A stretch of DNA of 64,000 nt from Opitutaceae bacterium (GTDB taxonomy: Bacteria; Verrucomicrobiota; Verrucomicrobiia; Opitutales; Opitutaceae): NCBI GenBank assembly GCA_030648295.1, contig JAUSID010000286.1:1-64000 (forward strand), written 5' to 3'. Made by a program: the position numbers and the translations under genes. Below, one piece after another: positions 9,930-25,095 of this stretch (the first letter of the stretch is position 1; the number at the start of each line of letters is the position of its first letter). The notes under the pieces are model-generated. The model was not told the DNA's origin, did not search any database, and saw only the letters and a list, made by a program, of their open reading frames with translations.

Positions 9930-11326
9930 AAATGGAGCTTCGCGTAATGCCGACGCTCGATCTCATCAACCCGGCCACGGGCAAGAAGATTGCTTCGCTG
10001 CCGGCGGATGACGTGCGGAGTGTCCGGCAGAAATTCGCGGCCGCGCACACCGCGCAACGCGCGTGGGCCGACGTGCCGCTGCGGGCGCGGCTCGAGACCA
10101 TTCGCCGGTTTCGCGCGGCCATCGTTCGCGACACCGACGAACTGGCCCTGACGCTCACGACCGAGACAGGCAAGCCAATCACCCAGGCGCGCAACGAACT
10201 GAAGGGGCTCCTGCCCCGGCTGGATTTTTTTCTCGAAGAAACGACCGGTGCGCTTCGACCACAGACCGTGTTCAAGGATCGAGAGGCGAAGCTGGCGGAA
10301 GAAATTTCGTGGGAGCCACTCGGCGTGGTGGCGAATATCTCCGCCTGGAACTATCCGTATTTTGTCGGCTGCAATGTGATCATCCCCGCGCTGCTGACGG
10401 GCAACGCGGTGCTCTACAAGCCGTCCGAGTTTGCGGCGCAGACTGGCCTCGCCATCGCCCGGCGGCTGCACGAGAGCGGCGTTCCCGAGGGCGTGTTGGC
10501 CGCGCTGATCGGCACGGGCGAGGTGGGCGCCGCGCTGCTGCGGCAGCCGATTGACGGCGTCTTCTTCACCGGCTCGTACGCCACCGGTCGCCGGATCGCG
10601 CGGCGCGTGGCGGGTCGGATGCTCAAGGTGCAGCTGGAGCTCGGCGGCAAGGATCCGGTGTATGTGTGCGATGACGTCGATGTCGCGACGGCCGCCGCGA
10701 GCACGGCCGATGGCGCATTCTACAACAACGGCCAGAGCTGCTGCTCCGTGGAGCGAATTTATGTCCACGAGAAGATTTACCCTGCGTTCGTGGCTGCGTT
10801 CGTAAGCGCGGTGCGCGGTTTCAAAATTGGGGATCCGCGGCGTGAAACGACCTACATCGGCCCGCTCACCCGTCCGGCCCAGATCGCGGTGCTCGACGCC
10901 CAGGTGGCGGACGCCCGAAAAAAGGGCGCGACAATCCTGCTGGGCGGCGAGCAACTGAAAAACCGGCTGAACACCTACGCGCCCACGGTGCTGGTGGACG
11001 TCAATCATCGAATGGACGTGATGCGCGAGGAGAGCTTCGGCCCGATCATCGGGATCATGGCCGTGAAGGACGATGCCGAGGCGCTGGCGCTGATGAACGA
11101 CACGAAATACGGGCTCACCGCGGGTGTGTACACGAGTGACCAAAAACGGGCGCAGCGAGTCCTCGGCCGGGTGAAAAGCGGTTCGGCGTATTGGAATTGC
11201 TGTGACCGCGTCAGCCCGCGGTTGCCGTGGTCCGGCGTTGGTCACTCCGGCGTCGGGCTGACGCTCTCGCGCCACGGCATCCAGACTTTCTGCCGGCCGA
11301 AGGCGTGGCATTTGCGGGAGCCGTAG
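9926..11326 (+). CDS. NAD(P)-dependent aldehyde dehydrogenase
   Basis: 466 residues from the ATG at 9926, which overlaps the previous stop codon by 4 bases. Motifs are INPATGKKIASL (start of fold), NISAWNYPYFVG (cofactor site), GVFFTGSYATGRRIA, LELGGKDPVYVCDD (general-base Glu) and FYNNGQSCCSVERIYVHE (catalytic Cys). It most resembles succinate-semialdehyde/betaine-type dehydrogenases. Context predicts that it oxidises the aldehyde made by the preceding iron dehydrogenase. Confidence 0.92.
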   Translation: MKMELRVMPTLDLINPATGKKIASLPADDVRSVRQKFAAAHTAQRAWADVPLRARLETIRRFRAAIVRDTDELALTLTTETGKPITQARNELKGLLPRLDFFLEETTGALRPQTVFKDREAKLAEEISWEPLGVVANISAWNYPYFVGCNVIIPALLTGNAVLYKPSEFAAQTGLAIARRLHESGVPEGVLAALIGTGEVGAALLRQPIDGVFFTGSYATGRRIARRVAGRMLKVQLELGGKDPVYVCDDVDVATAAASTADGAFYNNGQSCCSVERIYVHEKIYPAFVAAFVSAVRGFKIGDPRRETTYIGPLTRPAQIAVLDAQVADARKKGATILLGGEQLKNRLNTYAPTVLVDVNHRMDVMREESFGPIIGIMAVKDDAEALALMNDTKYGLTAGVYTSDQKRAQRVLGRVKSGSAYWNCCDRVSPRLPWSGVGHSGVGLTLSRHGIQTFCRPKAWHLREP

Positions 11327-12066: not shown

Positions 12067-12237
12067 GCGGCTGGAGGCTTGATCTAGCAGCCGCCGTCGC
12101 GCACGCAAGTGTTGCGCGCCCTGGGGAGCCGCCGCACTCCCGGGCGAGAAATGCCGCGCGCGCGGGCGCGGGCTGAGCAAGTGCACCGGCAAACTTTCGT
12201 GCGCCGGCCAATGAATGAAATCAGTTCGGCGTCCGTC

Positions 12238-12346
12238 CTGGGAGCGCGGGCGTCTCGCCCGCATTGGATTTGTTTCCTCGTGCCATGGCGGGCGGGACCC
12301 AGCCTTCGCCGGAGGCTACGGCGGGCAGGCTGCCCGCGCTCCCAGG
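12238..12346. repeat. Dispersed palindromic repeat, two inverted units
   Basis: CTGGGAGCGCGGGCGTCTCGC at the left and the inverted unit ending GCCCGCGCTCCCAGG at the right enclose a second foldback (TTCGCCGGAGGCTACGGCGGG). The right half differs from 7007-7056 at a single position over about 50 bases, so the copies are recent or kept alike by conversion. It lies directly behind the stop codon of the heme O synthase gene. Confidence 0.7.
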
Positions 12347-12358
12347 GGCGATCCCGCT

Positions 12359-13309
12359 TCACATCGCGCGGTCGATCAGCAGCGCGGCGAGGACGAGGGG
12401 CAGATAAATCAGCGAAGCACGGAACAGCCGGCGGGCGGCGGCGTTGCCGGCCTGCTCCGATTCACCGCGGGTCGCCTGGAGGAAATTCCACGCCCGCCAG
12501 GTCATCGCGACTCCGCAACCGAGCGCGGCGATCGCAAACACGAAACCGGTGAACCCAAGCGCGAACGGTAACAGCGACGCGAATACGAGGGCGATGCAGT
12601 AGCCGAACGACCATCCCGCCGTTCGCTGCCCATCGGCGTCAATCGCCGGCAGCAGCGGGAAACCGGCCTCGCGATATTCGTCGCGGCAGACCCAGCCAAT
12701 CGCGAAAAAATGGGGCATCTGCCAAAGTGCGATCAGCGCGAACACCAGCCACCCCAGCGGTGAAATCGTGCCGTCGGCCGCGGCGAATCCGATCAGTGGC
12801 GGCAGCGCGCCGGGGATCGCACCGAGCTCGGTGGCCCAGCGGGTCTTCCGCTTCAGCGGCGTGTACGCGAATACATACAACCCAATCGTGGTCGCGCTCA
12901 CGAGCGCCGCGAGCGGATGGTTGGCCAGCGCGAGGATGACGACGCCGAGTACCGCGAGCGTGGAACTCCATGCCAGCGCGAGTGAGGGAGAGATCGCGCC
13001 GGACGGCAGCGGACGCTCCCGCGTGCGCTCCATCATGCAGTCGGTGTCGCGCTCCCGCCACTGGTTGAGCGCGAGCGCGCCGCCGGCGGAGAGCATGGTG
13101 CCGGTGAGCAGCGCCGTCGTCTCGCTGCTGTTCCACTCCGGACGGGCGGCGGCGTAGGCGACCATCGTCGTGGAGACCGAAAGCATCGCGAGCCGTGGTT
13201 TCGTCAGCTCGATCAGTGATGCAAGCGTGGTGCCGGCGCGCGGCGCAGTTCCGGCCCGAAGCGAACGATCAAGCGGCAGCGGCGATGCCGCCACAGTCGG
13301 GGTTACCAT
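12359..13309 (-). CDS. cyoE: Heme O synthase (protoheme IX farnesyltransferase)
   Basis: 316 residues from the ATG at 13309, which has an AAGGTG ribosome site 8 bases upstream; a GTG at 13318 is the alternative. A UbiA-type prenyltransferase with about nine membrane spans. The Asp-rich motif NQWRERDTDCMMERTRERPLPSG, the TPLKRKTRWATELGAIPGALPP loop and MPHFFAIGWVCRDEYREAGFPLL are typical of CyoE/CtaB. It converts heme B to heme O for heme-copper enzymes. Its divergent position beside the respiratory genes and the FNR-type box between them suggest it serves that island. Confidence 0.92.
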   Translation of the reverse strand: MVTPTVAASPLPLDRSLRAGTAPRAGTTLASLIELTKPRLAMLSVSTTMVAYAAARPEWNSSETTALLTGTMLSAGGALALNQWRERDTDCMMERTRERPLPSGAISPSLALAWSSTLAVLGVVILALANHPLAALVSATTIGLYVFAYTPLKRKTRWATELGAIPGALPPLIGFAAADGTISPLGWLVFALIALWQMPHFFAIGWVCRDEYREAGFPLLPAIDADGQRTAGWSFGYCIALVFASLLPFALGFTGFVFAIAALGCGVAMTWRAWNFLQATRGESEQAGNAAARRLFRASLIYLPLVLAALLIDRAM

Positions 13310-13363
13310 GCGAGTCACCTTACCCGAAACGCGGTCATCGACCTAGTCGGATCCGCGGAAGTC

Positions 13364-13405
13364 TTGATGCGCGTCAAGGCCGCACGCACGGAAACGCGCT
13401 ACAAC
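13364..13405 (+). promoter_or_regulatory. FNR/NNR-type box and -10, promoter of the heme-copper cluster
   Basis: TTGATGCGCGTCAA at 13364-13377 matches the CRP/FNR-family consensus TTGAT-N4-ATCAA at 9 of 10 fixed positions. A -10-like TACAAC begins at 13400, which is 29.5 bases from the box centre. Placing the start at 13412 puts the box at -41.5, the class II position of FNR activation. The gap from box centre to ATG (54.5) equals that of nirK. The box may also serve cyoE on the other strand. Confidence 0.75.
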
Positions 13406-13424: not shown

Positions 13425-14954
13425 ATGGCATCCGCATCCAATTCCATCTGCCCCATCGCCGTCGCCCGGGTCGCGCCGCTCCCGTCTTGGCCGCGGACCG
13501 TTTCACCCGGTGCGGCCATTACAGTGGTCCCGGTCGTGAATGGCGAGGCGCGGCGTTGGTTTGCCCTCGCGGTGGGCAGTCTCGTGATTGCCGGGCTGCT
13601 TTCGCTTTCCGTGGTCCTTGGCCGGCTGCCGGTACTCTCGGGCCTGATTGGTGATCCGCTTTTCTTCAAGCGCTGCCTCGTGGTTCACGTCGATCTCGCG
13701 CTCGTGGTCTGGTTCTACGCGTTCCTTGCCGGGCTCGCCTCGATGCGCGCCGGCCGGACGACCGGAAGGTCAGGCCGGCTCGCGTTCGCACTCGCGGTGA
13801 GCGGGGTGGTCGCGATGCTCGGTGGGGCGTTGATGCGCGGCGCGCAACCCGTGCTGGCCAATTACGTGCCGGTGATTGATCACCCGCTGTTTCTCGGCGG
13901 GCTGGGCGCCTTCTTCCTCGGCACGCTGCTCTTCCTGCTCGAGACGCTTTCGTCCTCAACCCACCCGGAAGCCTCGCTGATCCCGCGTGATGCCGCGATC
14001 GGATTGCAGGCCGCGGCGGTGGCGTTCGTCCTGGCCGGCGCGACGTGGATTGCCACGCGCACTTCGTTGCCGGAGGGGCTCGACACCTGGACGCGTCACG
14101 AATTCTCCGCGTGGGGCGCCGGTCACGTGCTCCAGGTCGCCAACGCGGCCGCGATGGTTGCGGTGTGGCTCTGGCTGCTCGCGCGCGCGACCGCCCGGCC
14201 GGTCCTCTCACCAAGCTGGGCCATGGTGCTGTTCACCGCCCTCGTGGCGCCGCATTTTGCGATGCCGGTCCTGACGGCGCGCGGCGCGCTGGATCCGCTT
14301 TATCACAGCGGCGCGACGCTGCTCATGCGCTGGGGCATCTTCCCGATCGTGCTCATCGTCATGGCCGCGGGGCTGCGCCACCTGTGGCGGCACCGCCCGA
14401 CCGCGCTGGGGCGCTCGAGTGATCCGCTGGCGGGCGCGGCCTGCGCCGGGTTCCTGGCCAGTGTTTCCCTGACCATGCTCGGGTTTGTGCTTGGCGCCTG
14501 CATCCGCAGTTCCACTACGCTGGTGCCGGCGCATTACCACGCCTGCCTGGGCGGCGTGACGGTGGCGTTCATGGCTGCGGCTTACCTGGTTTGCGCGGCG
14601 GTGCGTACCCGGGGGAGCGCGATCACCACGTCCGCCGGGATCGCCATCCTGCACGCCCCACCGTCGCCCCTGCGTTCCGCGCGCCGGCAGCTGATTCTCT
14701 TCGGCATTGGCCAGAGCATCTTCGCGCTGGGTTTCGCCATCGGCGGCGCTTACGGGCTGGGACGCAAGGCTTACGCCGCCGAGCAACACGTACGGTCTGC
14801 CGGCGAACTCGTCGGGCTCGGCGTGATGGGCATCGGCGGGCTCATCGCGACGGCGGCGGGCCTCTGGTTCCTCGCGCTGGTGCTGCGGGAAATGCGCGGT
14901 TGGTGGCCGCGCGCCAACGTCCTGCCCAGGTTTTCCTCTTCGGCAACTCCATGA
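13425..14954 (+). CDS. Divergent heme-copper oxidase subunit I-like membrane protein
   Basis: 509 residues with about 12 membrane spans. It keeps several heme-copper landmarks: a helix II His (RCLVVHVDLALVVWF), WGAGHVLQVANAAAMVAVW (helix VI, CuB His region) and PAHYHACLGGVTVAFM (helix X HxH heme ligands). Where helix VII should carry the CuB His-His pair it has ALVAPHFAMP, so one ligand is missing. The helix VI block is clearly homologous to that of the subunit I gene at 15663. It may be a subunit or accessory of the same complex, or an oxidoreductase with an altered active site. It is first in the FNR-box operon. Confidence 0.7.
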   Translation: MASASNSICPIAVARVAPLPSWPRTVSPGAAITVVPVVNGEARRWFALAVGSLVIAGLLSLSVVLGRLPVLSGLIGDPLFFKRCLVVHVDLALVVWFYAFLAGLASMRAGRTTGRSGRLAFALAVSGVVAMLGGALMRGAQPVLANYVPVIDHPLFLGGLGAFFLGTLLFLLETLSSSTHPEASLIPRDAAIGLQAAAVAFVLAGATWIATRTSLPEGLDTWTRHEFSAWGAGHVLQVANAAAMVAVWLWLLARATARPVLSPSWAMVLFTALVAPHFAMPVLTARGALDPLYHSGATLLMRWGIFPIVLIVMAAGLRHLWRHRPTALGRSSDPLAGAACAGFLASVSLTMLGFVLGACIRSSTTLVPAHYHACLGGVTVAFMAAAYLVCAAVRTRGSAITTSAGIAILHAPPSPLRSARRQLILFGIGQSIFALGFAIGGAYGLGRKAYAAEQHVRSAGELVGLGVMGIGGLIATAAGLWFLALVLREMRGWWPRANVLPRFSSSATP

Positions 14955-15100
14955 ACAACGAAACCAACAAACACTGGCTCCAGCGGTTGCTCGACAACAT
15001 CTGGCTGCTGCTCGTCCTCGGTGTCCTGATACCTTTTCTGTCCTACACGGTGTGGGGATGGATCGAAATCGCGCTGGTCCGCCCGGCGCAAATGCCCTGA
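14951..15100 (+). CDS. Small single-span membrane protein, 49 residues
   Basis: It starts with an ATG that overlaps the preceding stop codon (ATGA) and ends 6 bases before the next ATG, so it is part of the operon although very short. A charged N-terminus (MNNETNKHWLQRLLDN) is followed by one hydrophobic helix (IWLLLVLGVLIPFLSYTVWG). The size and placement just before subunit II suggest a small structural subunit of the heme-copper complex, comparable in kind to the tiny extra subunits of other oxidases. Function is inferred only. Confidence 0.65.
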   Translation: MNNETNKHWLQRLLDNIWLLLVLGVLIPFLSYTVWGWIEIALVRPAQMP

Positions 15101-15106
15101 TTGACC

Positions 15107-15634
15107 ATGAGTCTCGCCATCCCCGCTCGTGATTGGTTCAAACCGCCCGTCGGAGCCGAGAAGCTCTGGATCGGGCTCGCGCTCCTGTGGTGCTTCGTGA
15201 TGAGCCTGATGATGCCTTACTGGCATTTCCGCGGAAAACAGAACTCCCGCGGTGAAGCCTATGCGGTGAAGCCCACCGCGTTCCTCGAACGCAGCGAGAA
15301 ATTCGCCGCGGCGAACAAGGTCGGCACCGATGCCGCTGGCAACATCATCGCCGAGCCTGCGCCCGGCGGCGACGCCTACCTGCTCGCCCGGATGTGGAGC
15401 TGGACGCCAATCCTGAAACTCCGCCAGGGCGAGACCTACCGCATCCACCTGTCGTCGCTCGATCTCCAGCACGGCTTCTCGCTTCAGCCATTGAACATGA
15501 ACTTCCAGGTGCTGCCCGGTTACGACCATGTGCTGACCCTCACGCCGACGTCCAAGGGCGAGTTCACCATCGTCTGCAACGAATTCTGCGGCATCGGGCA
15601 CGACAAGATGTTCGGCAAGATCATCGTCGAATAG
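15107..15634 (+). CDS. CuA-containing subunit II of a heme-copper oxidase/NO reductase
   Basis: 175 residues from the ATG at 15107; a TTG at 15101 is possible. One N-terminal span (LWIGLALLWCFVMSLMMPYW) is followed by a cupredoxin domain exposed outside the cytoplasmic membrane. The CuA ligands are all present: His in LDLQHGFSLQ, then CNEFCGIGHDKMFG (Cys, Glu, Cys, His, Met). It accepts electrons from a cytochrome c or cupredoxin and passes them to subunit I. The short form with a single span resembles the B-type oxidase and sNOR (NorY) subunits. Confidence 0.85.
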   Translation: MSLAIPARDWFKPPVGAEKLWIGLALLWCFVMSLMMPYWHFRGKQNSRGEAYAVKPTAFLERSEKFAAANKVGTDAAGNIIAEPAPGGDAYLLARMWSWTPILKLRQGETYRIHLSSLDLQHGFSLQPLNMNFQVLPGYDHVLTLTPTSKGEFTIVCNEFCGIGHDKMFGKIIVE

Positions 15635-15662
15635 CCCGCGAACTCGAAACGCGAAACCGAAA

Positions 15663-17384
15663 ATGTCCTCCACTCTCGCCATCCCGCTGCCGGCCCCGAT
15701 GCCGGTTCGTCCCGAGGTCGGTGCGCGCAAGTGCGCGACCACCGGCCTCAACGTCTGCCTCACGGCGGAAAAGTTCATCAAGCTGACCGCGGTCAGCGCG
15801 GTCGTCTTCCTGCTGCTCGGCGGCATCGCGGCCATCCTGCTCGCACTCACGCGCTGGCAGGCCGTCCACCTGCTTCCGGTCGACTGGTTCTATCGGATCC
15901 TGACCTTCCACGGTCTGAACATGCTGATCTTCTGGATCCTGTTCTTCGAAGTGGCCGTGCTTTATTTCACCTGCACGACGCCGCTCAACGCCCGGTTGTT
16001 TTCCGCCAAGGTCGCCTGGGCGGGTTTCATCCAGATGATCGTGGGCGCGGTGATGGTCGATTACATCATCCTCGCCGGCAAGGCCGACGTGCTGATGACC
16101 AGCTATCTGCCGCTGGTGGCGCACCCGCTCTTCTATCTCGGTATCATTTTGGTGGCTACGGGCACGCTTACCGGAGTGTTCAACTTCTTCGCCACGCTGT
16201 ACGTCGCGAAGCGCGACCGGACCTACGAGGGCTCGCTGCCGCTCGTGACGTACGGCGCGACCGCGGCGGCGATCATCGCCGTCGTCACGCTGCTGCACGG
16301 CGCCATCGTGATGATCCCCACGTTCACCTACGCGATGGGTTGGACCGCCCAGCCCGACCCGATGTGGTATCGGATGATCTGGTGGGGCCTCGGCCACCAG
16401 TCACAGCAGGTCAATGTCGCCGCGATGGTGGCGATCTGGTATCTGATCGGAAACCTCACCACCGGCGCCAAGCCGCTCAACGAGACGGTGTGCCGCGCGG
16501 CCTTCGTGCTCTACATCCTCTTCATCAATCTCGCCTCGGCCCACCATCTGCTGGTCGATCCGGCCGTTGGTTCGGCGTGGAAAATCTGGAACACGTCGTA
16601 CGCCATGTATCTCGCCGTGCTGGCCTCGATGATCCACGGGTTCACCGTGCCGGCTTCGGTCGAATTCGCGATGCGCGAGAAGGGCTACACCAAGGGTCTG
16701 TTCGGCTGGGTCACCCACCTGCCGTGGCGCAATCCGGCGTTCTCTGGCGCGCTGCTCTCGCTGCTCATCTTCGGTTTCATCGGCGGCATCACGGGCGTCA
16801 CGCTCGGCACGCAGCAGATCAACATCATTGCGCACAACACGCTGCGGATCACCGGCCACTTCCATGCCACCGTCGTGGGCGGCACCTCGCTGGCGTTCAT
16901 GGCCCTGACCTATTACGTCATCCCGCTGATCTTCCGCCGGAACTTCATCTGGCGCTCGGCCGCGCGGGCCCAGCCGTGGATGTTCGGCGGCGGCATCCTG
17001 CTCGTTTCGCTCGGCATGTCATTCGCCGGCTCGATGGGCGTGCCGCGCCGGATTTACGACATCGACCACTCGGGCGCGTTCGGCCCGGCCGCGCACCTGA
17101 TGCTCGGGGTCATGGGCATCGGCGCGATCCTCGCCGCCGCGGGCCTGTTCCTCTTCTGTATCCTTTGCGTGGGCACGCTGCTCTTCGGCGAGAAGACCGG
17201 GAACCGTGCGATGGCGGACTGGGGCGTGGCGCAGGCGCTCGCCGGCAGCCGCGAGGGCTCGCTCGCGGACGACCACTGGGCCGTCAAGGGCACGATCGCG
17301 CTCACCGCGGTTTTCCTCGCCAGCTTCGCCGTGTATTATTTCGCCAACTGGAAGGCGCTCGCCGACGTGTGGCCGGTGCGCTGA
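15663..17384 (+). CDS. Heme-copper subunit I, probable NO reductase (sNOR/eNOR type)
   Basis: 573 residues, 12 or more spans. Heme and CuB ligands are intact: FHGLNMLIFW (helix II His), WWGLGHQSQQVNVAAMVAIW, NLASAHHLLVDP (His-His pair) and RITGHFHATVVGG (HxH). After the helix VI His the sequence is QSQQ, with no Tyr in the place of the cross-linked Tyr of O2-reducing A/B oxidases (GHPEVY). Loss of that Tyr is a feature of NO reductases in this superfamily. The adjoining CuA subunit, SenC/SCO gene, NirK and FNR-type boxes support NO reduction to N2O. An oxygen reductase of unusual type remains possible. Confidence 0.8.
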   Translation: MSSTLAIPLPAPMPVRPEVGARKCATTGLNVCLTAEKFIKLTAVSAVVFLLLGGIAAILLALTRWQAVHLLPVDWFYRILTFHGLNMLIFWILFFEVAVLYFTCTTPLNARLFSAKVAWAGFIQMIVGAVMVDYIILAGKADVLMTSYLPLVAHPLFYLGIILVATGTLTGVFNFFATLYVAKRDRTYEGSLPLVTYGATAAAIIAVVTLLHGAIVMIPTFTYAMGWTAQPDPMWYRMIWWGLGHQSQQVNVAAMVAIWYLIGNLTTGAKPLNETVCRAAFVLYILFINLASAHHLLVDPAVGSAWKIWNTSYAMYLAVLASMIHGFTVPASVEFAMREKGYTKGLFGWVTHLPWRNPAFSGALLSLLIFGFIGGITGVTLGTQQINIIAHNTLRITGHFHATVVGGTSLAFMALTYYVIPLIFRRNFIWRSAARAQPWMFGGGILLVSLGMSFAGSMGVPRRIYDIDHSGAFGPAAHLMLGVMGIGAILAAAGLFLFCILCVGTLLFGEKTGNRAMADWGVAQALAGSREGSLADDHWAVKGTIALTAVFLASFAVYYFANWKALADVWPVR

Positions 17385-17508: not shown

Positions 17509-18528
17509 ATGCCCGCGACCAAAACCGAACTCCTCCCGTCCGCCATCGGCAGCGCGCTGCTGGCCGCCTCCGCGGCCGAAGATGCGCGCAATGGCTGGCG
17601 GCGCTTCTTCACCGGCGCGGGGCTGCCGATCTTCCTGCTCGCCGCCGCGGCGATCTACGAATCGTTCCTGCTCATGCTGGTGTTCGCGCCGCTGGAGTCG
17701 GGGTGGCTTGGTGGCTTCGCGCGCGAGTTCAAGGTCTGGTGTTTCAGCTACGATCCACGCACCGGTGGCATGGAATGGTCCAGCGTCGGAATGATGCTGA
17801 TGGAACCGCTGTTTGTCCTCGTGGTGGCGGTGGTGCTCTGGCGTCGCGCGCTCCAGTCGGCGCGGTGGCTGCAATCCTGGCGTCCCGCCGCCTGCGGCAT
17901 TGCCGCCGCCCTGCTCGCCATCACGAGTCTCCTTTCACTCGGTGCGCGCGGCGCCGCCGACGAGACTCTGCCGCCGTTTCCCGGCGAACGGATTCGCACG
18001 CACCTGATCCCGCCGAGTTTCCGGCTCGTGGATCAAACCGGCCGCGAATGCGCGCTGGAAGACCTGCGCGGGCGCGTGGTTCTCGTCACGGGCATCTACG
18101 CCATGTGCGGCACAACCTGCCCGCAAATCCTGGTCGAGACCCGGAAGCTGCTGGATTCGCTGCCGGCCGGGGCCCGGTCACAGGTGACGGTGCTCGCGCT
18201 GTCACTGAACCCCGAATACGAGACCGCCGAGTTGATGGCCTCCGTTGCGGCCGGGTACGGTTTCACTCACCCTGAGTTTCGCTATCTCAACGGCAAGCCG
18301 GCGGAAATGCACGGGGTCCTCGATGCGTTTCAGTTCGCGCGCTTCCGCGATGCCAAGACCGGGCTGATCGAGCATGCCAACCTGCTCATGCTGCTCGATG
18401 CGCGCGGCGAGATTGCGTACCGGTTCAACCTGAATCCACGCCACCAGGTCTGGCTGCGCGAGGCCGTCCTGCAACTGGCGGCCGAGGCGCGGGCGGAGCC
18501 GCCGGTGCCAACCGCCGCGACGGAATGA
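17509..18528 (+). CDS. SCO1/SenC copper chaperone with N-terminal membrane domain
   Basis: 339 residues. Three hydrophobic segments fill the first 145 residues (LPIFLLAAAAIYESFLLMLVF, LMEPLFVLVVAVVLW and CGIAAALLAITSLLSL). From about residue 165 there is a thioredoxin-fold SCO domain with the copper motif CGTTCP and the distal His in GLIEHANLLMLLDARG. SCO proteins deliver copper to CuA sites, here most likely the subunit II encoded at 15107. The multi-span N-terminal part is unusual, since most SCO proteins have one anchor. A senC gene also accompanies the norSY genes of ammonia oxidisers. Confidence 0.85.
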   Translation: MPATKTELLPSAIGSALLAASAAEDARNGWRRFFTGAGLPIFLLAAAAIYESFLLMLVFAPLESGWLGGFAREFKVWCFSYDPRTGGMEWSSVGMMLMEPLFVLVVAVVLWRRALQSARWLQSWRPAACGIAAALLAITSLLSLGARGAADETLPPFPGERIRTHLIPPSFRLVDQTGRECALEDLRGRVVLVTGIYAMCGTTCPQILVETRKLLDSLPAGARSQVTVLALSLNPEYETAELMASVAAGYGFTHPEFRYLNGKPAEMHGVLDAFQFARFRDAKTGLIEHANLLMLLDARGEIAYRFNLNPRHQVWLREAVLQLAAEARAEPPVPTAATE

Positions 18529-18543: not shown

Positions 18544-20709
18544 GTGGCGGCCGGGGTAACGAGTCTGGAATTTTTGTTTAATGTGAACCCGGTGATTCCC
18601 ACCCTTGAACCCAAAATGCGCCCGGTCGTCCCGACCGGTTCCGGTGGTGCCGCCGACGTCACGGCGCCGGCCGTGCCTCCGGTGCCCCCGGTGCGCGGCG
18701 ACGCCTTCCTCAACCGCATCGATCGCGCGTTTGCCTGGGTTGACGGCTGGCTGAGCCGCTGGCTGCCGCCGGACCTGAATCCGCTCGCGCATGCCGGTGC
18801 GGCCGCGAACCTCGCGCTGATTGTCGCGGTCGCGAGCGGCGTGCTGCTGCTGATCTGGTATTCGCCCAGCGTGCAGTTTGCCTATTCGTCGCTCACCGCG
18901 ATCCAAGGCGTGACGCTGGGCGGGTGGGTGAGGGCGCTTCACCGTTACAGCTCTGACCTGGCCATGCTGCTGCTGGTGGTCCACGCCGGCCGCGTTTTCT
19001 TTGCCCGCAAGTTCGGCGGCGCCCGCTGGCTGCCCTGGGTGTCGGGCGTGGCCATGCTCGGGCTCGTGTGGTTCATCGGCTGGACCGGCTACTGGCTGGT
19101 GTGGGACCAGCCCGCGCAGCAGGTCGCTGTATCCTCGATGCGGTTACTCGATGGGCTGCCGATTTTCGGCGAGCCGCTCGCCCGGCTCTACGTCAGCGAT
19201 CGCACGGTGCCGAGCCTGCTCTTCTTCGTCGTCTTTTTTCTCCACATGCTGCTGCCGCTCGCGATTGCGGTCGGGCTGGCGGTGCACCTCGCCCGTGTGA
19301 GCCGGGCGCGGCTGCTGCCCTCGCGCGCGCTTTCGTGGTCACTGATCGCCGGCCTCGCGGTCGCCTCCCTTGCCGTGCCGGCGCCGCTCGATGCGCCGGC
19401 CCGCATGGCGGTGAAGGCGGCCAGTTTCACCGTCGACGCGTGGTATCTCTCGCCGCTGGCGCTCGGGTTGCGGCTCCAGGAGGGCGGCCTCTGGATCGCC
19501 CTCGCGGGCGGCACGCTGCTGGCGGGCGTGGTGCCGTGGCTGCTCGGCCGGCGGCGGAAGCCGGAAACGTTCCAGGCCTCGGTCAACACGTCGCGCTGCC
19601 ACGCGTGCACGCAATGCGTGCAGGACTGCCCGTTCGACGCGATCACGATGGTCGCGCGCACCGACGGGAAAAATTTTCCATCGCAGGCCCAGGTCGATCC
19701 CGCGCGCTGCGTCGGCTGCGGCGTATGCGCGGGCTCATGTGACTCGGAGGGCATCGCGCTCACGTGGTTCGACACGCGCGTGCAGGAGGCGGCGCTCGAG
19801 CGGGAAATCGTCGACCGCGCGGCGGCGGGCTCCGCCCGCTGGGTGGCACTCGTGGCGGCCGACATCTCGGGTGCGCCGGGACGAATCGAACGCGACGCGT
19901 GGCAGCGGTTGCTGCCCGACTGCGATGTGCAATCGGTGCCGACGGCGAGCTGGGTGCGGCCGCGTTTGGTCGAGCGCATGCTCGCGCGCGGGGCGAAGGG
20001 AGTGCTCGTGGTGCGGGATGCGTCGGCCGAGGCGTGGGCGCGCGATGGCGGCCGCTGGGTGGAGGAACGGCTGGCAGGCGCGCGCAATCCGATCTTCCGG
20101 CCGGAGCGTGCCGCCGGCGGCGCGTGGGCGGTGCTCGATTTCGATCGGTCGCGGCCAGAGAACCTGACGCGCGCCGCCCGGGCGCTCACGGCCGGCGAGA
20201 CCGCGGCCGCGGTTCCGCCGCGGATCAAACGTACGGCGACGGTCGTTGCCGGCACGCTCCTGCTCGCGACGGTCATCGCAGCGGCGGTGGCGCCGAGTCA
20301 TTTTACGGTAGGCAATCCGGTGTCACCGGATCCAGAGCTGGTGATTTCGTTCAAAGCCGTCGGGCAGATGGTGGCGCCGTCGCCGCTGGATCCCGCGACC
20401 GAGGCGAAAAAGCCCGTGCACATGCGCGGTCGAACGACCGACAAACCGCACCGCGCGCCCGTCATCGTGCGGGTGAGCATCGATGGCGTCGTGCACGAGC
20501 GCTCGTTCACGGCGAAGGGTGTTTCGCGCGATGGACCGGCAATCGGGGAATGGCGCGAGCCGCTCACGGCTGGCGCGCACGACGTGAAAGTCGAGATGGT
20601 GACCGGGCCGGAGGCGCCGCCCGCGCGCTGGCAGGGCACGATCCGGGCCGAAGCGCGAAAGCTCAACGTTATCAGCTACGAGCCGCGCGGTGGATTCGTG
20701 GTGGAGTAG
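18544..20709 (+). CDS. Cytochrome b / 2[4Fe-4S] ferredoxin / MvhD-like fusion protein
   Basis: 721 residues if the GTG at 18544 is used; an ATG at 18616 would remove 24. The N-terminal half is a cytochrome b domain with His pairs in ALHRYSSDLAMLLLVVHAGR and FFLHMLLPLAIAVGLAVHLAR. Residues about 350-405 hold two ferredoxin motifs, CHACTQCVQDCP and CVGCGVCAGSCD. Residues about 425-525 resemble the MvhD/HdrA delta domain (WVALVAADISG, ARGAKGVLVVRD) but lack its cysteines. One more span and an exported C-terminal domain close the protein. It probably links the quinone pool or a soluble donor to the nitrogen-oxide reductases (inference). Confidence 0.75.
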   Translation: MAAGVTSLEFLFNVNPVIPTLEPKMRPVVPTGSGGAADVTAPAVPPVPPVRGDAFLNRIDRAFAWVDGWLSRWLPPDLNPLAHAGAAANLALIVAVASGVLLLIWYSPSVQFAYSSLTAIQGVTLGGWVRALHRYSSDLAMLLLVVHAGRVFFARKFGGARWLPWVSGVAMLGLVWFIGWTGYWLVWDQPAQQVAVSSMRLLDGLPIFGEPLARLYVSDRTVPSLLFFVVFFLHMLLPLAIAVGLAVHLARVSRARLLPSRALSWSLIAGLAVASLAVPAPLDAPARMAVKAASFTVDAWYLSPLALGLRLQEGGLWIALAGGTLLAGVVPWLLGRRRKPETFQASVNTSRCHACTQCVQDCPFDAITMVARTDGKNFPSQAQVDPARCVGCGVCAGSCDSEGIALTWFDTRVQEAALEREIVDRAAAGSARWVALVAADISGAPGRIERDAWQRLLPDCDVQSVPTASWVRPRLVERMLARGAKGVLVVRDASAEAWARDGGRWVEERLAGARNPIFRPERAAGGAWAVLDFDRSRPENLTRAARALTAGETAAAVPPRIKRTATVVAGTLLLATVIAAAVAPSHFTVGNPVSPDPELVISFKAVGQMVAPSPLDPATEAKKPVHMRGRTTDKPHRAPVIVRVSIDGVVHERSFTAKGVSRDGPAIGEWREPLTAGAHDVKVEMVTGPEAPPARWQGTIRAEARKLNVISYEPRGGFVVE

Positions 20710-21012
20710 GGCGCGCAGCGCGCCGCGCACGGTTCTGGGTTTTGGGTTCTGGGTTCTGTGTTTCGCGTTTTGGGTTTTGGGTTTCGGGTTTCGGGTTCAA
20801 CTCCCAGTCGTTGGCATTTCTTCTTTCTCGTTTTCCGATCCTTGGACTCGGTTGTCTCGCGTTCTCGCGTTCTTCGATGTCTCCCCTTTCTTCGTCCTGC
20901 CCTTACCCCACCGTTCGTTGCCCCTTAATACATCCGATTAGCAGCCGCGGCGATTCCGCGGCGCTTGATGTGAATCAAGGCCCCGGCGGCCGGGCTGGGT
21001 TACGATGGCAGC
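20710..21012. repeat. Intergenic region with degenerate GGGTTTT heptamer array
   Basis: The 303 bases hold no credible gene. At 20733-20798 nine heptamers of the form TGGGTTY/CGGGTTY follow each other with few changes. Downstream lies the FNR-type promoter of the ywiC-like gene, annotated separately. The repeat has the same 7-base period as the AAGGACC array at 8546, which suggests a shared way of expansion. Confidence 0.75.
20965..21006 (+). promoter_or_regulatory. Perfect FNR/NNR box and -10 before the ywiC-like gene
   Basis: TTGATGTGAATCAA (20965-20978) is a perfect TTGAT-N4-ATCAA palindrome. TACGAT begins at 21001, 29.5 bases from the box centre, exactly as in the two other promoters of this island. 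A start at -41.5 geometry would fall on base 21013, the A of the ATG, so this message may be leaderless. Confidence 0.8.
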
Positions 21013-21828
21013 ATGGAATCAACCCTGTCGCTGCCTTGCCCGGAACCAGCCGCGCGCTGGCGCGAACTGGTCATGCCGAAGGAGCACGGCAGTTGGTCAC
21101 TGGCGTTCGAGCCGCTGGCATTCGGATTGCTCGTGGCCCCGTCCGCCGCGGGCGCATTTCTCGCGGGCACCATTGCGGCCGCCTTTTTCTGCCGCCGGCC
21201 CCTGCGTATTGCGGTCATGGATGCACGGCCGGCGCGCCGGGCCAGCGCCCGCACGATTCTCGTGGCGTTGGGCGCGGTCGCCGCGGTCGCGCTGGCCGGC
21301 GCAATCGCACTCGGCGGCGCCGATTGGCTGCGCTGGCTCGCGCCGTCGCTCCTCGCGGGCGGCGTGTTCGCGATATTCGATGTGCGCAACGCCGGCCACG
21401 AAGAAGCGGCTGAGGTGGCCGGCGCCGCGGCGTTCGCCTGGCTCCCGGCCGTGTTCGCCATCCTCGATGGTGCCTCGCCGCTCGCCGCCGTCGCCGTCGC
21501 CACCGTGATGATTGGACGTGCCGTGCCCACTGTGCTTTGCGTCCGCGCCGTGCTGCGGGGCGGGAAAACCGGCGAGCGGCACGTCGCCCTGCCGCTGTTC
21601 GCCGCCGCGGCCGCGTTGGCGGGCGCTATTGCGTTTGCCCGCGCCGGGGTTGTGCCATTCACGGCGGTCGTGCTTCTCGGGCTGCTCGGTCTTCGGTCCA
21701 TCGCGCTCCTCGTTTTCCCGCGGCCGGCGCTCCGCGGCCGTACCCTCGGCATGATCGAAACTGCGCTCGGGGTGGCGTTTGTCATCGCCGCTGCCGGCGC
21801 GTGGGTCAGCTTCTCACCGAACGCTTGA
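21013..21828 (+). CDS. YwiC-like membrane protein
   Basis: 271 residues with seven or eight spans. The signature ELVMPKEHGSWSLAFEPLAFGLL near the N-terminus and RPLRIAVMD place it in the YwiC family, named after a Bacillus gene next to the nitrate reductase and fnr genes. Biochemical function is not established. Its perfect FNR-type box and position before nirK fit a role in anaerobic nitrogen-oxide metabolism. If the message is leaderless the ATG at 21013 is the start; an ATG at 21073 is the alternative. Confidence 0.8.
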   Translation: MESTLSLPCPEPAARWRELVMPKEHGSWSLAFEPLAFGLLVAPSAAGAFLAGTIAAAFFCRRPLRIAVMDARPARRASARTILVALGAVAAVALAGAIALGGADWLRWLAPSLLAGGVFAIFDVRNAGHEEAAEVAGAAAFAWLPAVFAILDGASPLAAVAVATVMIGRAVPTVLCVRAVLRGGKTGERHVALPLFAAAAALAGAIAFARAGVVPFTAVVLLGLLGLRSIALLVFPRPALRGRTLGMIETALGVAFVIAAAGAWVSFSPNA

Positions 21829-21866
21829 CCCACATCAAGGCTCCCCGGCCGTATCTCGCGTACCTT
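21825..21866 (+). promoter_or_regulatory. FNR/NNR-type box and -10, nirK promoter
   Basis: TTGACCCACATCAA (21825-21838) fits the family consensus at 9 of 10 fixed bases and overlaps the stop of the ywiC-like gene. TACCTT begins at 21861, 29.5 bases from the centre. The predicted start at 21873 leaves a 13-base leader before the nirK ATG, the same as at 13425. Confidence 0.8.
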
Positions 21867-21885
21867 GTTCCCACCGATTCGAGCA

Positions 21886-23397
21886 ATGAACATCCTGATT
21901 CCCTCCCACCCGCTCCGCGCCATCACGGTGCTCCTCGCCGCTGCCCTGACCAACTTCGCCGTCCCGCTGCGCGGCGGCGAAGAGGCCATGGTCGCGAAGC
22001 CCAATGGCGGCCCGCTCGCCGCCCACCTCCCGGTCGAAATCGCCGTGCTCACCCCGGCGCCCAACGTCCCACCGCCGATCACCCGGCGCCACGAGGCCAA
22101 GGTCGTCGTCAACCTCGAGGTCCGTGAGCTCACGCGCCGGCTGGCCGACGGCGTCGAATACACCTTCTGGACGTTCGGCGGCGGTGTCCCCGGATTGTTC
22201 ATACGCGTCCGCGAGGGCGACGTGGTCGAGTTCCACCTCAACAACCACCCCTCCTCGAAGGTGCCGCACAATATCGACCTCCACGCGGTGACCGGCCCGG
22301 GCGGTGGTGCGGCCTCGACGTTCACGGCCCCCGGCCATGCGTCGCAGTTCACGTTCACCGCGCTGAGCGCCGGCCTCTACGTTTACCACTGCGCGACCGC
22401 CCCGGTGCCGATGCACATCTCGAACGGGATGTACGGACTGATCCTCGTTGAGCCGAAGGGCGGGCTGCCGAAGGTGGACCGCGAGTACTACGTCATGCAG
22501 GGCGACTTTTACACCCAGGGGGCGACGGGCGAGGGTGGGCTGCAAATTTTCGACAACGTCAAGGCCACGGACGAGCGGCCCACCTATGTCGTGTTCAACG
22601 GCGCGGTCGGCTCGCTCGTCGGCGATGCGGCCCTCCAGGCCAAAGTCGGTGAGATCGTGCGGCTCTTCTTCGGCGTCGGCGGCCCGAATCTCACCTCGTC
22701 GTTCCACGTCATCGGCGAGATTTTCGACCGCGTCTATCCCGAGGGCGGCATGAAGCTGGTGCAGGAGAACGTCCAGACGACGATGGTGCCGGCCGGCGGC
22801 TCCGCCATCATGGAGTTCAAGGTGGATGTGCCCGGCACGTTCGTGCTGGTCGACCACTCGCTCTCCCGCGCGTTCAACAAGGGCGCCCTCGGCATGCTCA
22901 AGGTTACCGGCCCGGAAAATCGCGTGATCTACTCCGGCAAGGAAGTCGATGAAGTGTATCTCGGCGACCAATCCGATGCCGGTGTCGCCGCCCGTGACCG
23001 TGCGGCGGAGCTCGTGGCCAGGAAGCAGGAGGCCATCGCCTCGAACCCGGAAATCGCGGGCATGACCAAGGAAATCCAGATGGAGCGCGGCAAGAAGGTG
23101 TACCTGCAATCGTGCTTTGCCTGCCACATGGCGAACGGCGAAGGGCTGCCGGGCGTTTTCCCGCCGCTGGCGAAGTCGGATTACCTGAACGCCGACCGCA
23201 ATCGCGCCATCCTGATCCCGCTCAAGGGACTCAACGGCCCCATCACCGTGAACGGAAAGCCCTACAACAACGTGATGCCACCGCAGGCCTTCACCGACGA
23301 CCAAATCGCCGACGTGCTGACCTTCGTGCTGAACAGCTGGGGCAACAGCGGCGGCTCGGTCTCGCCCAAGGATGTCAAACAGGCCCGCGACAATTAA
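21886..23397 (+). CDS. nirK: Copper nitrite reductase NirK fused to cytochrome c
   Basis: 503 residues from the ATG at 21886 (a TTG at 21865 lies in the -10 region). After a signal peptide come two cupredoxin domains with the type 1/type 2 copper ligands: [15 protein letters not shown] (including the catalytic Asp), [18 protein letters not shown] and [14 protein letters not shown]. About 110 C-terminal residues form a class I cytochrome c with CFACH and a late axial Met in NVMPPQAF. The enzyme reduces nitrite to NO in the periplasm, and the fused heme should take electrons directly from the respiratory chain. It has its own FNR-type promoter. Confidence 0.95.
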
Positions 23398-23446
23398 TCG
23401 CCGGCTCAACCCGCATCTCCCACCTCCTCACCCGCCAGTTCCGCCC

Positions 23447-24391
23447 ATGAAACCAGCCGCGCCAACCCTCCTTGCCTGCCTCGCCGTGGGCCTGGCTGCC
23501 AGTGCGGCGTTGCTCACCCACGCTGCGCCGGCGGAGAGCGCGGCTGGGGCCGCACCTGTAGCCGTGTCTGCGCCGGCTGCGACCCCATCCGTGGCGGCCG
23601 CGCGACCGGGCATGATCCTGATTCCCGCGGGCGAGTACCTGCCGTTGCTGCGCGGTCGCGATGAACCCGAGCGGGTTCAGGTTCCCGGTTTCTGGCTGGA
23701 CGCCCGGCCGGTGACCAACGCGGAGTTTCTCGCCTTTGTCCGCGCGCAACCGAAGTGGTCTCGCTCCCGCGTGTCTCCACTTTTTGCGGACAAGGGTTAT
23801 CTCGGCGACTGGGCGGGCGATCTCGAACTCGGGGCGAATGTGCCCGCCGAGGCACCCGTCGTCCGCGTGTCGTGGTTCGCCGCGCGCGCGTATGCGGCAT
23901 GGGCAGGCAAGCGGCTGCCGAAGACCGCCGAGTGGGAACGAGCGGCGGCGGCTGGATTCGAAGGTGAAAACGGCATGAGCGAGCCCGCGCATCGCTCGGC
24001 CGCGCTCGGCTGGTTCTCGAAGCCTTCGCCCGCCCGGCTGCCGCCCGCCGGCTCCGGCCGGCCAAATGTCCACGGCGTGCGCGACCTGCTGACCCTGGTC
24101 TGGGAATGGGTCGACGATTTCAATACCGCCATGGTCACGGGTGAGTCCCGCGCGGACACCGGGCTGGAGCGCACCCAGTTTTGCGGCGCCGGCTCCGTGG
24201 GCGCGCGTGATCTCACGAATTATCCCGCGTTCATGCGCGCCGGCATGCGCAGCTCGCTGCGGGCGAGCTATGTCGTCGGCAACCTCGGATTCCGCTGCGT
24301 GGCCGACGCGACCGCCGCCGAAAAACCTCCCCTTGCCGCAACCGGCGAAACCGTCGCGATCTCCGCGACCTCTTCCTCGATTTCAAAATGA
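23447..24391 (+). CDS. NirV-like SUMF1/formylglycine-generating-enzyme family protein
   Basis: 314 residues from the ATG at 23447. A signal peptide and Ala/Pro-rich linker precede a SUMF1-type domain: GMILIPAGEYLPLL, VPGFWLDARPVTNAEFLAFV, APVVRVSWFAARAYAAWAGKRLPKTAEWERAA, VWEWVDDFN and a terminal GFRCV. Proteins of this family next to nirK are called NirV in some denitrifiers. The paired catalytic cysteines of true formylglycine-generating enzymes are not evident, so it is more likely a structural or maturation factor for NirK than a sulfatase activator. The stop overlaps the next ATG. Confidence 0.8.
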   Translation: MKPAAPTLLACLAVGLAASAALLTHAAPAESAAGAAPVAVSAPAATPSVAAARPGMILIPAGEYLPLLRGRDEPERVQVPGFWLDARPVTNAEFLAFVRAQPKWSRSRVSPLFADKGYLGDWAGDLELGANVPAEAPVVRVSWFAARAYAAWAGKRLPKTAEWERAAAAGFEGENGMSEPAHRSAALGWFSKPSPARLPPAGSGRPNVHGVRDLLTLVWEWVDDFNTAMVTGESRADTGLERTQFCGAGSVGARDLTNYPAFMRAGMRSSLRASYVVGNLGFRCVADATAAEKPPLAATGETVAISATSSSISK

Positions 24392-25095
24392 AAACCAAGA
24401 TTGCCCTCCTCTTCCTCTCCGCAGCCTGTGGCGCGGTTATCGCCGCTGATGTCCCTGCCGCGGCGGCCGGTGCGACCGGCACCGCTTCGGAAACGCCGAG
24501 TTGCTGTGCACCGGCCAAGCCGGCGCCGGCCAGCTGCTGCGCCGCGCCCGACACCGCCGCCGTCGCTGCCAGCATCGCGCCCTTGAGCTCCCGCTCGATT
24601 TATCAGCTCGATGCGAAATGGGCCGACGACGCCGGACAGTCCGTTTCGCTCGCGACGCTGCGCGGCCGCCCCGTGGTGATGGCGATGTTCTTCGCCAGCT
24701 GTGAATACGCGTGCCCGGTCCTCGTCAACGACATGAAGCGACTCCGCGCGCTGCTGCCGGAATCCGTGCGTGCGACCGCGCAATTCGTGCTCGTCAGCTT
24801 CGATACCGCGCGCGACACGTCCGCGGTGCTGTCGTCCTACCGCGGCAAATCGGAGCTCGATTCGAGCTGGACGCTGCTCCGGGGCGAGGATGCCTCGGTG
24901 CAGGAACTCGCCATGCTGCTCGGCGTGAAGTTCAAGCAGGACGCCCGCGGCCAGTTCGCTCACTCCAACTTGATCACGGTCCTCAACGGCGAGGGTGAGG
25001 TCGCGCACCAGCACGCCGGTCTGATGGGCGATGTTTCCGAGGTCGCGAAGGCCGTGACGCTGGCGTCGAAGCCAATCGAGGTCGCCTCGCGTTAA
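24388..25095 (+). CDS. SCO-family protein with Cys-Cys-rich N-terminal segment
   Basis: 235 residues, with the start overlapping the NirV-like stop (ATGA). After a signal peptide, the segment SCCAPAKPAPASCCA carries two Cys pairs. The SCO domain follows with FASCEYACPVLVNDMKRL (CxxxC copper motif) and GQFAHSNLITVLNGEGEV (distal His). In the nirK operon its client is probably NirK copper or the CuA site. The extra Cys pairs could bind additional copper or form disulfides. The sequence is clearly different from the SCO protein at 17509, so the island has two non-redundant chaperones. Confidence 0.85.
   Translation: MKTKIALLFLSAACGAVIAADVPAAAAGATGTASETPSCCAPAKPAPASCCAAPDTAAVAASIAPLSSRSIYQLDAKWADDAGQSVSLATLRGRPVVMAMFFASCEYACPVLVNDMKRLRALLPESVRATAQFVLVSFDTARDTSAVLSSYRGKSELDSSWTLLRGEDASVQELAMLLGVKFKQDARGQFAHSNLITVLNGEGEVAHQHAGLMGDVSEVAKAVTLASKPIEVASR

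Follow-up and report, generated by a model that had tools for sequence, protein, structure and literature searches.

A probable eNOR-type nitric oxide reductase of an Opitutaceae bacterium, encoded beside a conserved subunit I paralogue that lacks the CuB site

The cassette and its genes

In an Opitutaceae bacterium (Verrucomicrobiota; assembly GCA_030648295.1, 9.1 Mb, 96.6% complete, 4.0% contamination), a stretch of 64,000 nucleotides (contig JAUSID010000286.1, positions 1 to 64,000; here called the window) harbors five consecutive genes on the + strand, which very probably encode an eNOR-type nitric oxide (NO) reductase converting NO into nitrous oxide (N2O). The five genes encode a paralogue of haem-copper subunit I, termed I' here, subunit II, the catalytic subunit I, a SCO protein and a cytochrome b-ferredoxin fusion. 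A first-pass annotation of positions 13425-17384 had proposed an NO reductase at this site; the whole I' gene lies within the same span and was not discussed there. The cassette consists of the following features:

13364..13377, + strand: FNR/DNR-type box TTGATGCGCGTCAA before I', one of only three exact boxes in 64 kb
13425..14954, + strand: I', haem-copper subunit I paralogue without CuB site, 509 residues (COX1 33.6 bits)
15101..15634, + strand: subunit II, complete CuA site (similar to COX2/CoxB, with scores under the curated cut-offs; six CuA ligands in 81/81)
15663..17384, + strand: predicted eNOR catalytic subunit I, 573 residues, helix VI GHQSQQVN, Gln249 at the position of the cross-linked Tyr
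17509..18528, + strand: SCO/SenC copper chaperone (PF02630 62.8 bits; C200, C204 and H289 in 73/73)
18544..20709, + strand: fusion of a cytochrome b6-like protein, a two-[4Fe-4S] ferredoxin domain and a C-terminal part

For I' the start codon is unproven, and the conserved part starts at about residue 42.

The active site of subunit I

Subunit I matches COX1 with 209.7 bits, and its best solved relatives are the ba3 (B-type) oxidases (E ~1e-44). In the alignment to ba3, His245 of subunit I corresponds to His233, and the QSQQ following His245 puts Gln249 on Tyr237. All residue counts for subunit I refer to 86 sequences, the window and 85 loci, of which two unnamed ones (L026 and L027) seem to be duplicates of L054 and L057. 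Here, the six haem/CuB histidines (H83, H245, H294, H295, H399 and H401) as well as Gln249 are each present in 86/86, which bears out the first-pass claim that all six histidines are kept and that QSQQ occupies the place of the Tyr cross-linked in the B-family.

Furthermore, Q248, N251 and H325 are each found in 86/86 and in 0/7 of the Tyr-type plasmid-borne references, and the homologues from R. marinus, Thermus, Thermomicrobium and Defluviimonas share Q248, Q249, N251 and H325. The seven plasmid-borne references, which lie outside the Gln clade, all carry Tyr at the position of Gln249; six of them have V, Y, W and T at positions 248, 249, 251 and 325, and the Azospirillum reference, a divergent haem-copper protein, has H, Y, P and A. 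An alternative active-site Tyr, which the first-pass annotation had named as evidence for an oxidase, was looked for by alignment only (the predicted model of subunit I has a mean predicted local distance difference test, pLDDT, of 78.2) and is absent from both the B-type and the C-type position in 86/86; at the latter, six residues before the His-His pair, Ile288 is found throughout.

An eNOR should have a single proton channel of the K-like kind; of the residues in question, Y260, S322, T328 and E334 are each present in 86/86, yet T328 is Ala in R. marinus, and T312 and Y244 of ba3 correspond to His325 and V256. E334 is common to 7/7 and S322 to 5/7 of the Tyr-type references.

Two observations on the compared proteins may be added. 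In the haem-copper protein on the Azospirillum brasilense plasmid (2501-3733), Tyr takes the place of one CuB histidine and also that of the histidine for the high-spin haem. The Thermus eNOR (8983-10668) shows Lys at the position of the low-spin haem His (401) in the alignment, which may be a misalignment.

Probable assignment to the eNOR class

The residue at the position of the cross-linked Tyr is diagnostic within the superfamily: Table A4 of PMC8756737 gives Gln for eNOR, Asn for sNOR and CuANOR, Asp for gNOR and Tyr for O2 reductases. By this residue the first-pass wording "sNOR/eNOR-like" can be narrowed to eNOR; its eNOR half agrees with the Gln, and its sNOR half, which would call for Asn, does not. 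Directly upstream of subunit I lies the cupredoxin subunit II (15101-15634), in which the CuA ligands H124, C159, E161, C163, H167 and M170 are each conserved in 81/81, so the full CuA site reported at first pass is genuine by sequence.

The subunit I tree contains an A-type outgroup, 26 Gln-type rows and nine Tyr-type rows, with no row named as sNOR or gNOR. All 26 Gln-type rows fall on one branch (support 100/99) against the nine Tyr-type rows (98/95). This clade includes R. marinus, Thermus and Thermomicrobium and is separate from the B-type O2 reductases; the window lies deep inside it and not within an O2-reducing clade, the placement against which the first-pass annotation had set its reading. 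The genome used for comparison is taken to be that of R. marinus, since its ActC stretch is identical over 326/326 residues to 6f0k_C and 6F0K is from R. marinus, which is also the origin of the characterised eNOR. The biochemical characterisation of an eNOR has been published (PMC11388526).

Other classes were considered and rejected. An sNOR would have Asn and a gNOR Asp at the diagnostic position, where Gln is found in 86/86; cNOR and qNOR are characterized by an active-site Glu and a NorC haem c subunit or a fused quinol form, instead of which Gln, a CuA subunit and a B-family relationship are seen; and a B-type O2 reductase would have a Tyr cross-linked to the helix VI His instead of Gln249.

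Taken together, the change of Tyr to Gln and the other residues of the Gln clade, the tree, the linkage to nirK with a shared FNR-type box in this lineage and the physiology of an Opitutales isolate (both described below) argue for an NO reductase rather than an oxidase, as had been proposed at first pass. We infer NO as the substrate of the window enzyme. The genes around the Thermus and Defluviimonas homologues include Rrf2, DUF542, cytochrome P460 and hemerythrin, which are often linked to NO, and this fits NO as the substrate.

Six COX1 matches are present in the window genome, which we assign to one A-type and one fused CcoN-type protein, subunit I, I' and, under names of our own, a degenerate CcoN-like and an NnrS-like protein. 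Among these six, the eNOR is the only NO reductase candidate. In the same genome, no NosZ match above the cut-off was found; only three weak, fragmentary ones remain, of which two fall within subunit II and NirK. A CcoN-like subunit of this genome (− strand, 94477-95616 of its contig) seemingly lacks most of the haem and copper histidines.

The sister protein I'

The COX1 match of I' falls just below the cut-off of 34.8 bits, and 31/51 members of the I' alignment match COX1 at E <=0.001. This alignment comprises 51 sequences (50 of the 66 near-full-length I' rows and the window), and the companion alignment of subunit I comprises 37 of 70 rows and the window. A profile comparison of I' with subunit I by hhalign gave 99.8% (E 1.2e-28). 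The predicted model of I' (pLDDT 89.5, predicted template modelling score 0.89) resembles haem-copper subunit I along its length, with Z 28.9 and a root mean square deviation (rmsd) of 3.4 over 408 residues for 8iuf_C1, Z 27.4 and rmsd 4.0 over 400 residues for the cNOR 4xyd_A, and Z 26.4 and rmsd 3.6 over 420 residues for the ba3 oxidase 1ehk_A.

Invariant within this fold (51/51 each) are H88 of helix II, H234 of helix VI, H370 and H372 of helix X, and R447 and K448, which form the Arg-Lys motif of the propionate region. The His-His pair of helix VII is found in 0/51; a single His occupies its first place in 17/51, and at its second place His is never among the residues listed. I' thus combines the 12-helix fold and the low- and high-spin haem ligands of a haem-copper subunit I with the loss of the three-His CuB (or FeB) site. 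With the ligands of both haems retained and the helix VII pair lost, I' is expected to hold two haems and to be unable to bind CuB in the usual manner.

I' and the eNORs have several residues in common past the helix VI His, namely Q at +3 (47/51), N at +6 (27/51) and W at +14 (51/51). When one A-type row serves as the outgroup, the tree places I' with the Gln-type enzymes (100/99), and placements outside eNORs and oxidases (p = 0.0099 in the approximately unbiased test, p-AU) or with the O2 reductases (p-AU 0.0098) were rejected. A quick 49-row tree agreed on the place of I' (support 98), and a tree of only subunit I, I' and B-type rows gave a 100/100 split, which is not decisive without an outside row. 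A position of I' beside only the near relatives of subunit I was neither supported nor rejected in the tree without an outgroup (p-AU 0.496), and the grouping of Gln-type subunits I alone, which separates an origin of I' before from one within the eNORs, has support of 71/89 with the outgroup row and 83/92 without it. Azospirillum was left out of all trees and Cupriavidus out of both careful I' trees; the other rows are a spread that we picked out of the two alignments. Judged from alignments and trees, I' is a second subunit I paralogue from the eNOR lineage.

For three pairs that each include the window sequence, the ratio of nonsynonymous to synonymous substitutions (dN/dS) of I' is 0.18-0.25, which together with the haem ligands invariant in 51/51 rules out a pseudogene. 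In the same three pairs dN is 0.21-0.25 for I' vs 0.07-0.10 for subunit I. At two loci (L095 and L098), both outside the 51, the I' match is split between frames. An assembly artefact is ruled out as well, since the same neighborhood recurs in loci of eight phyla. A plasmid search with I' gave no match, and I' is not described in the literature searched, which did not include the main eNOR paper, so a prior mention is possible.

Distribution and linkage

The named loci are the best 80 of 531 confirmed relatives from a scan of genome contigs, all at least 59% identical, and the frequency of I' applies to that range; most are metagenome-assembled genomes with names as deposited. I' is present in 69 of the 80 loci, adjoins subunit I in 69/69 and occurs in eight phyla; where at least 3 kb lie upstream, it is found in 65/70. 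By phylum as deposited, the counts of I' are as follows: Verrucomicrobiota (39/45), Myxococcota (16/18), Spirochaetota, Planctomycetota and Pseudomonadota (3/3 each), Balneolota, Calditrichota and Nitrospirota (1/1 each), loci without a phylum name (2/2) and Bacteroidota (0/3). Among the named loci with at least 3.5 kb downstream the SCO gene follows in 65/67 and the cytochrome b-ferredoxin gene is in the locus in 66/67, and subunit II is found in 72/77 by our adjacency rule.

Whole genomes were sampled as well. The Verrucomicrobiota sample of 288 genomes holds I' in five, all with subunit I, and subunit I in six; seven weaker matches to subunit I (~30% identity) were set aside as oxidase-like, and the three that were read all have Tyr. 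In the Myxococcota-titled phylum sample of 235 genomes I' is present in 24, subunit I in 28 and both in 23. Here, the lone I' lies at a contig end and one I' fragment, also at a contig end, was dropped, and among the five genomes with subunit I and no I', two loci end at the contig edge and one has no I' nearby. The Balneolaceae-titled phylum sample (247 genomes) has I' in four, a near-type subunit I in six and both in four, with five more genomes holding an R. marinus-like subunit I without I' and 16 with weaker matches only left out. In the three samples together, 32/33 genomes with I' also hold an eNOR, the exception being the one at the contig end. A search of 12 genomes with I'-less loci gave one full I' elsewhere and contig-end pieces in two, and in the rest subunit I itself or nothing. 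I' depends on subunit I; subunit I does not depend on I'.

Accessory proteins, promoter boxes and neighboring genes

In the SCO protein at 17509 CxxxC and the His are kept in 73/73. The first-pass annotation was right that a SCO gene follows subunit I, and of the parallel to norSY-senC that it drew, only this shared SCO gene is left. The cytochrome b-ferredoxin protein has the haem ligands H133, H147, H234 and H248 and eight cluster cysteines, each in 66/66. As a whole, 18544-20709 is a fusion of cytochrome b6, two [4Fe-4S] and HdrA-like parts, and a similar mix (cytochrome b6, DMSOR beta-like and FlpD) is tabled for protein RME88945.1 in PMC8756737.

The divergent neighbor of I' and the genes downstream of the cassette are as follows:

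12359..13318, − strand: haem O synthase CtaB, divergent neighbor (TIGR01473 268.7 bits vs cut-off 210.3)
20965..20978, + strand: FNR-type box before YwiC (exact-box scan)
21013..21828, + strand: YwiC-like membrane protein (PF14256 55.8 bits)
21825..21838, + strand: FNR-type box before nirK (exact-box scan)
21865..23397, + strand: copper nitrite reductase NirK, cytochrome c domain fused at the C-terminus (TIGR02376 349.1 bits, cut-off 296.3)
23372..24391, + strand: FGE-sulfatase-domain (NirV-like) protein adjoining nirK (PF03781 119.9 bits)
24388..25095, + strand: second SCO/SenC protein (PF02630 58.5 bits)

Exact TTGAY-N4-RTCAA boxes occur three times in the 64 kb, just upstream of I', YwiC and nirK, compared with a mean of 0.12 and a maximum of one in 60 simulated sequences. 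With one mismatch allowed, eight sites are found against 4.1 expected, a number reached by 7/100 shuffles. The NirK encoded nearby under the same type of promoter, as stated at first pass, is thereby confirmed by the TIGR02376 match and by the exact boxes before I' and nirK. The exact box precedes I' in 41 of the 70 I' loci whose upstream sequence was long enough (three others fell short), with a background of 0.036 per 510 bp; nirK has such a box in 12/18. The 41 loci are Verrucomicrobiota by record title or kinship and the box-less loci belong to other phyla or have no assigned phylum; therefore, the FNR-type box is a feature of the lineage and not of the whole family.

For NirK, an alternative ATG start is possible at 21886. 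The cytochrome c domain (PF00034 at residues 407-492) keeps CxxCH and the Met in 19/19, and due to this fused domain NirK may take electrons directly. The FGE-sulfatase-domain gene, whose product is NirV-like, stands beside nirK in 18/18 of the loci that hold nirK. YwiC has its own exact FNR-type box and lies within 600 bp of nirK in 10/18 nirK loci (one as a shared open frame); a YwiC-like gene is also present near the Thermus eNOR (12096-13193), and YwiC is a candidate denitrification gene.

Physiological data come from an isolate of the Opitutales, Verruconatronum alginivorum, whose genome encodes NirK and an eNor. For this isolate PMC13274419 reports the conversion of 4 mM nitrite into 1.5-1.7 mM N2O, demonstrated by gas chromatography, without tracing the activity to eNor.

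Farther along the window, a phage-type integrase (27178-28419), a UbiD-type decarboxylase (35937-37355) and an HpaB-type hydroxylase (47656-49806) are encoded.

Proposed mechanism and alternative explanations

The reading preferred here, an eNOR in which I' acts as a CuB-less sister and non-catalytic partner within the complex, is given a probability of about 65%. NirK would make NO from nitrite in the periplasm, and electrons would pass from CuA of subunit II via the low-spin haem of subunit I to the high-spin haem/CuB site, where 2 NO + 2 e- + 2 H+ -> N2O + H2O would take place. Gln249 stands there in place of the redox-active Tyr required for O2 splitting. The SCO protein probably loads CuA, and electrons are likely to be supplied by the cytochrome b-ferredoxin protein.

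I' would have arisen on the eNOR lineage, lost CuB and become a non-catalytic member of the complex with two haems; its helix VI His could ligate the second haem directly after the loss of CuB. With these two haems next to CuA, I' would help to pass electrons to CuA, and together with the cytochrome b-ferredoxin protein it would form an electron supply built into the operon, in which conserved ligands provide for two haems in either protein and two Fe-S clusters come in addition. We infer the haem in I', the formation of the complex and this direction of electron flow. That I' is a partner subunit at all is held with moderate confidence. Only tentatively can this be extended to a large eNOR branch of at least eight phyla, in which the enzyme would be a heteromer of the catalytic subunit and a CuB-less two-haem sister.

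Several observations weigh against the preferred reading. The branch of I' is long (3.6 changes per column with the outgroup, 4.3 without), and since the outgroup is one long row, the exact place of I' is unsure. I' is lacking in 5/70 near relatives with enough upstream sequence, and no I' was found near the homologues of R. marinus, Thermus, Thermomicrobium and Defluviimonas, so eNORs can exist without it. Furthermore, nirK is present in only 15/34 named loci flanked by 9 kb or more on either side (Verrucomicrobiota 13/20, Myxococcota 0/6), and 29/70 loci, none labelled Verrucomicrobiota, have no exact box before I'. Finally, operon neighbors co-occur without touching each other.

Such I'-less eNORs would also fit I' being a separate co-expressed haem protein beside the eNOR, for instance a factor for haem loading or assembly, a sensor of NO or a protein that holds NO, and not a subunit. 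The faster evolution of I' seen in dN points the same way, as do some Bacteroidota and Verrucomicrobiota relatives that retain SCO and cytochrome b-ferredoxin without I'. This explanation is considered unlikely, though worth keeping in view, because a 12-helix haem-copper fold with three haem ligands in 51/51 exceeds the needs of an assembly factor, and of the 33 genomes with I' a single one showed no eNOR, its I' lying at a contig end.

An unusual B-family O2 reductase managing without the cross-linked Tyr is very improbable. The ba3 oxidases as nearest solved proteins, the CuA and SCO typical of oxidases, and E334 and S322 shared with Tyr-type references would suit it, but the tree keeps the Gln clade apart from the O2 reductases, Tyr is missing at both known positions, and in Verrucomicrobiota the linkage to nirK, the FNR-type boxes and the N2O-producing Opitutales isolate point to NO.

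Hardly any weight is given to a chemistry like that of the NO dismutases, 2 NO -> N2 + O2, with I' or subunit I as the catalyst. The altered binuclear site and the lack of NosZ above the cut-off in the genome would be in line with it; known NO dismutases are qNOR-like, however, whereas subunit I is B-type-related with complete CuB ligands, and dismutation has no need of the external electrons that a CuA subunit implies. Equally improbable is an sNOR (norSY-senC) or gNOR member, since the diagnostic residue is Gln and neither Asn nor Asp, although a CuA-type cupredoxin subunit and a SCO gene are also known from norSY-senC.

Implications

The substrate NO is toxic and the product N2O is a greenhouse gas. 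According to PMC8756737, eNORs are often annotated as cytochrome c oxidases. Due to this, NO reducers and N2O sources are likely undercounted. I' beside a subunit I with GLGHxSQQ (83/85 loci) could serve as a marker for Verrucomicrobiota, Myxococcota, Planctomycetota, Spirochaetota and others bearing an eNOR. A conserved CuB-less subunit I would furthermore be a natural experiment on the roles of CuB and Tyr in the haem-copper superfamily. If the wider reading of a heteromeric eNOR branch is true, this would be the first haem-copper enzyme known to us with an electron-transfer, perhaps quinol-facing, subunit derived from a duplicated and disarmed catalytic subunit.

Comparison with known systems

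The eNOR of the R. marinus type resembles the window enzyme in the Gln at the Tyr position, the two core subunits, of which the CuA-bearing subunit II is encoded directly upstream, and the B-family relationship. The R. marinus homologue is 42.6% identical to subunit I of the window and has GHGSQQIN. To this type the window cassette adds SCO, the cytochrome b-ferredoxin fusion and the CuB-less I'; the 14 kb stretch surrounding the R. marinus genes gave no hit for SCO, cytochrome b-ferredoxin or a further subunit I. V. alginivorum belongs to the same order as the window organism and has NirK and eNor in common with it; its description lists eNorAB alone and calls eNorB quinol-dependent (PMC13274419).

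The ba3 O2 reductase of Thermus thermophilus (1EHK) shares the fold, the haem and CuB ligands and a CuA subunit II with the window enzyme, in which Gln249, Q248, N251, V256 and H325 stand in place of Tyr237, V236, W239, Tyr244 and T312. The norSY-senC clusters of ammonia oxidisers encode a cupredoxin subunit II with a SCO/SenC gene nearby, and we know of no I' or cytochrome b-ferredoxin that accompanies them. In contrast to Gln in the window, sNORs have Asn at the diagnostic site, as given in PMC8756737.

To our knowledge, there is no other haem-copper example with a CuB-less paralogue of subunit I. The pairing of a catalytic subunit with a paralogue that has lost the catalytic ligands has a counterpart in the cytochrome bd enzymes, as CydA/CydB or CydAA', which belong to a protein family unrelated to the haem-copper enzymes.

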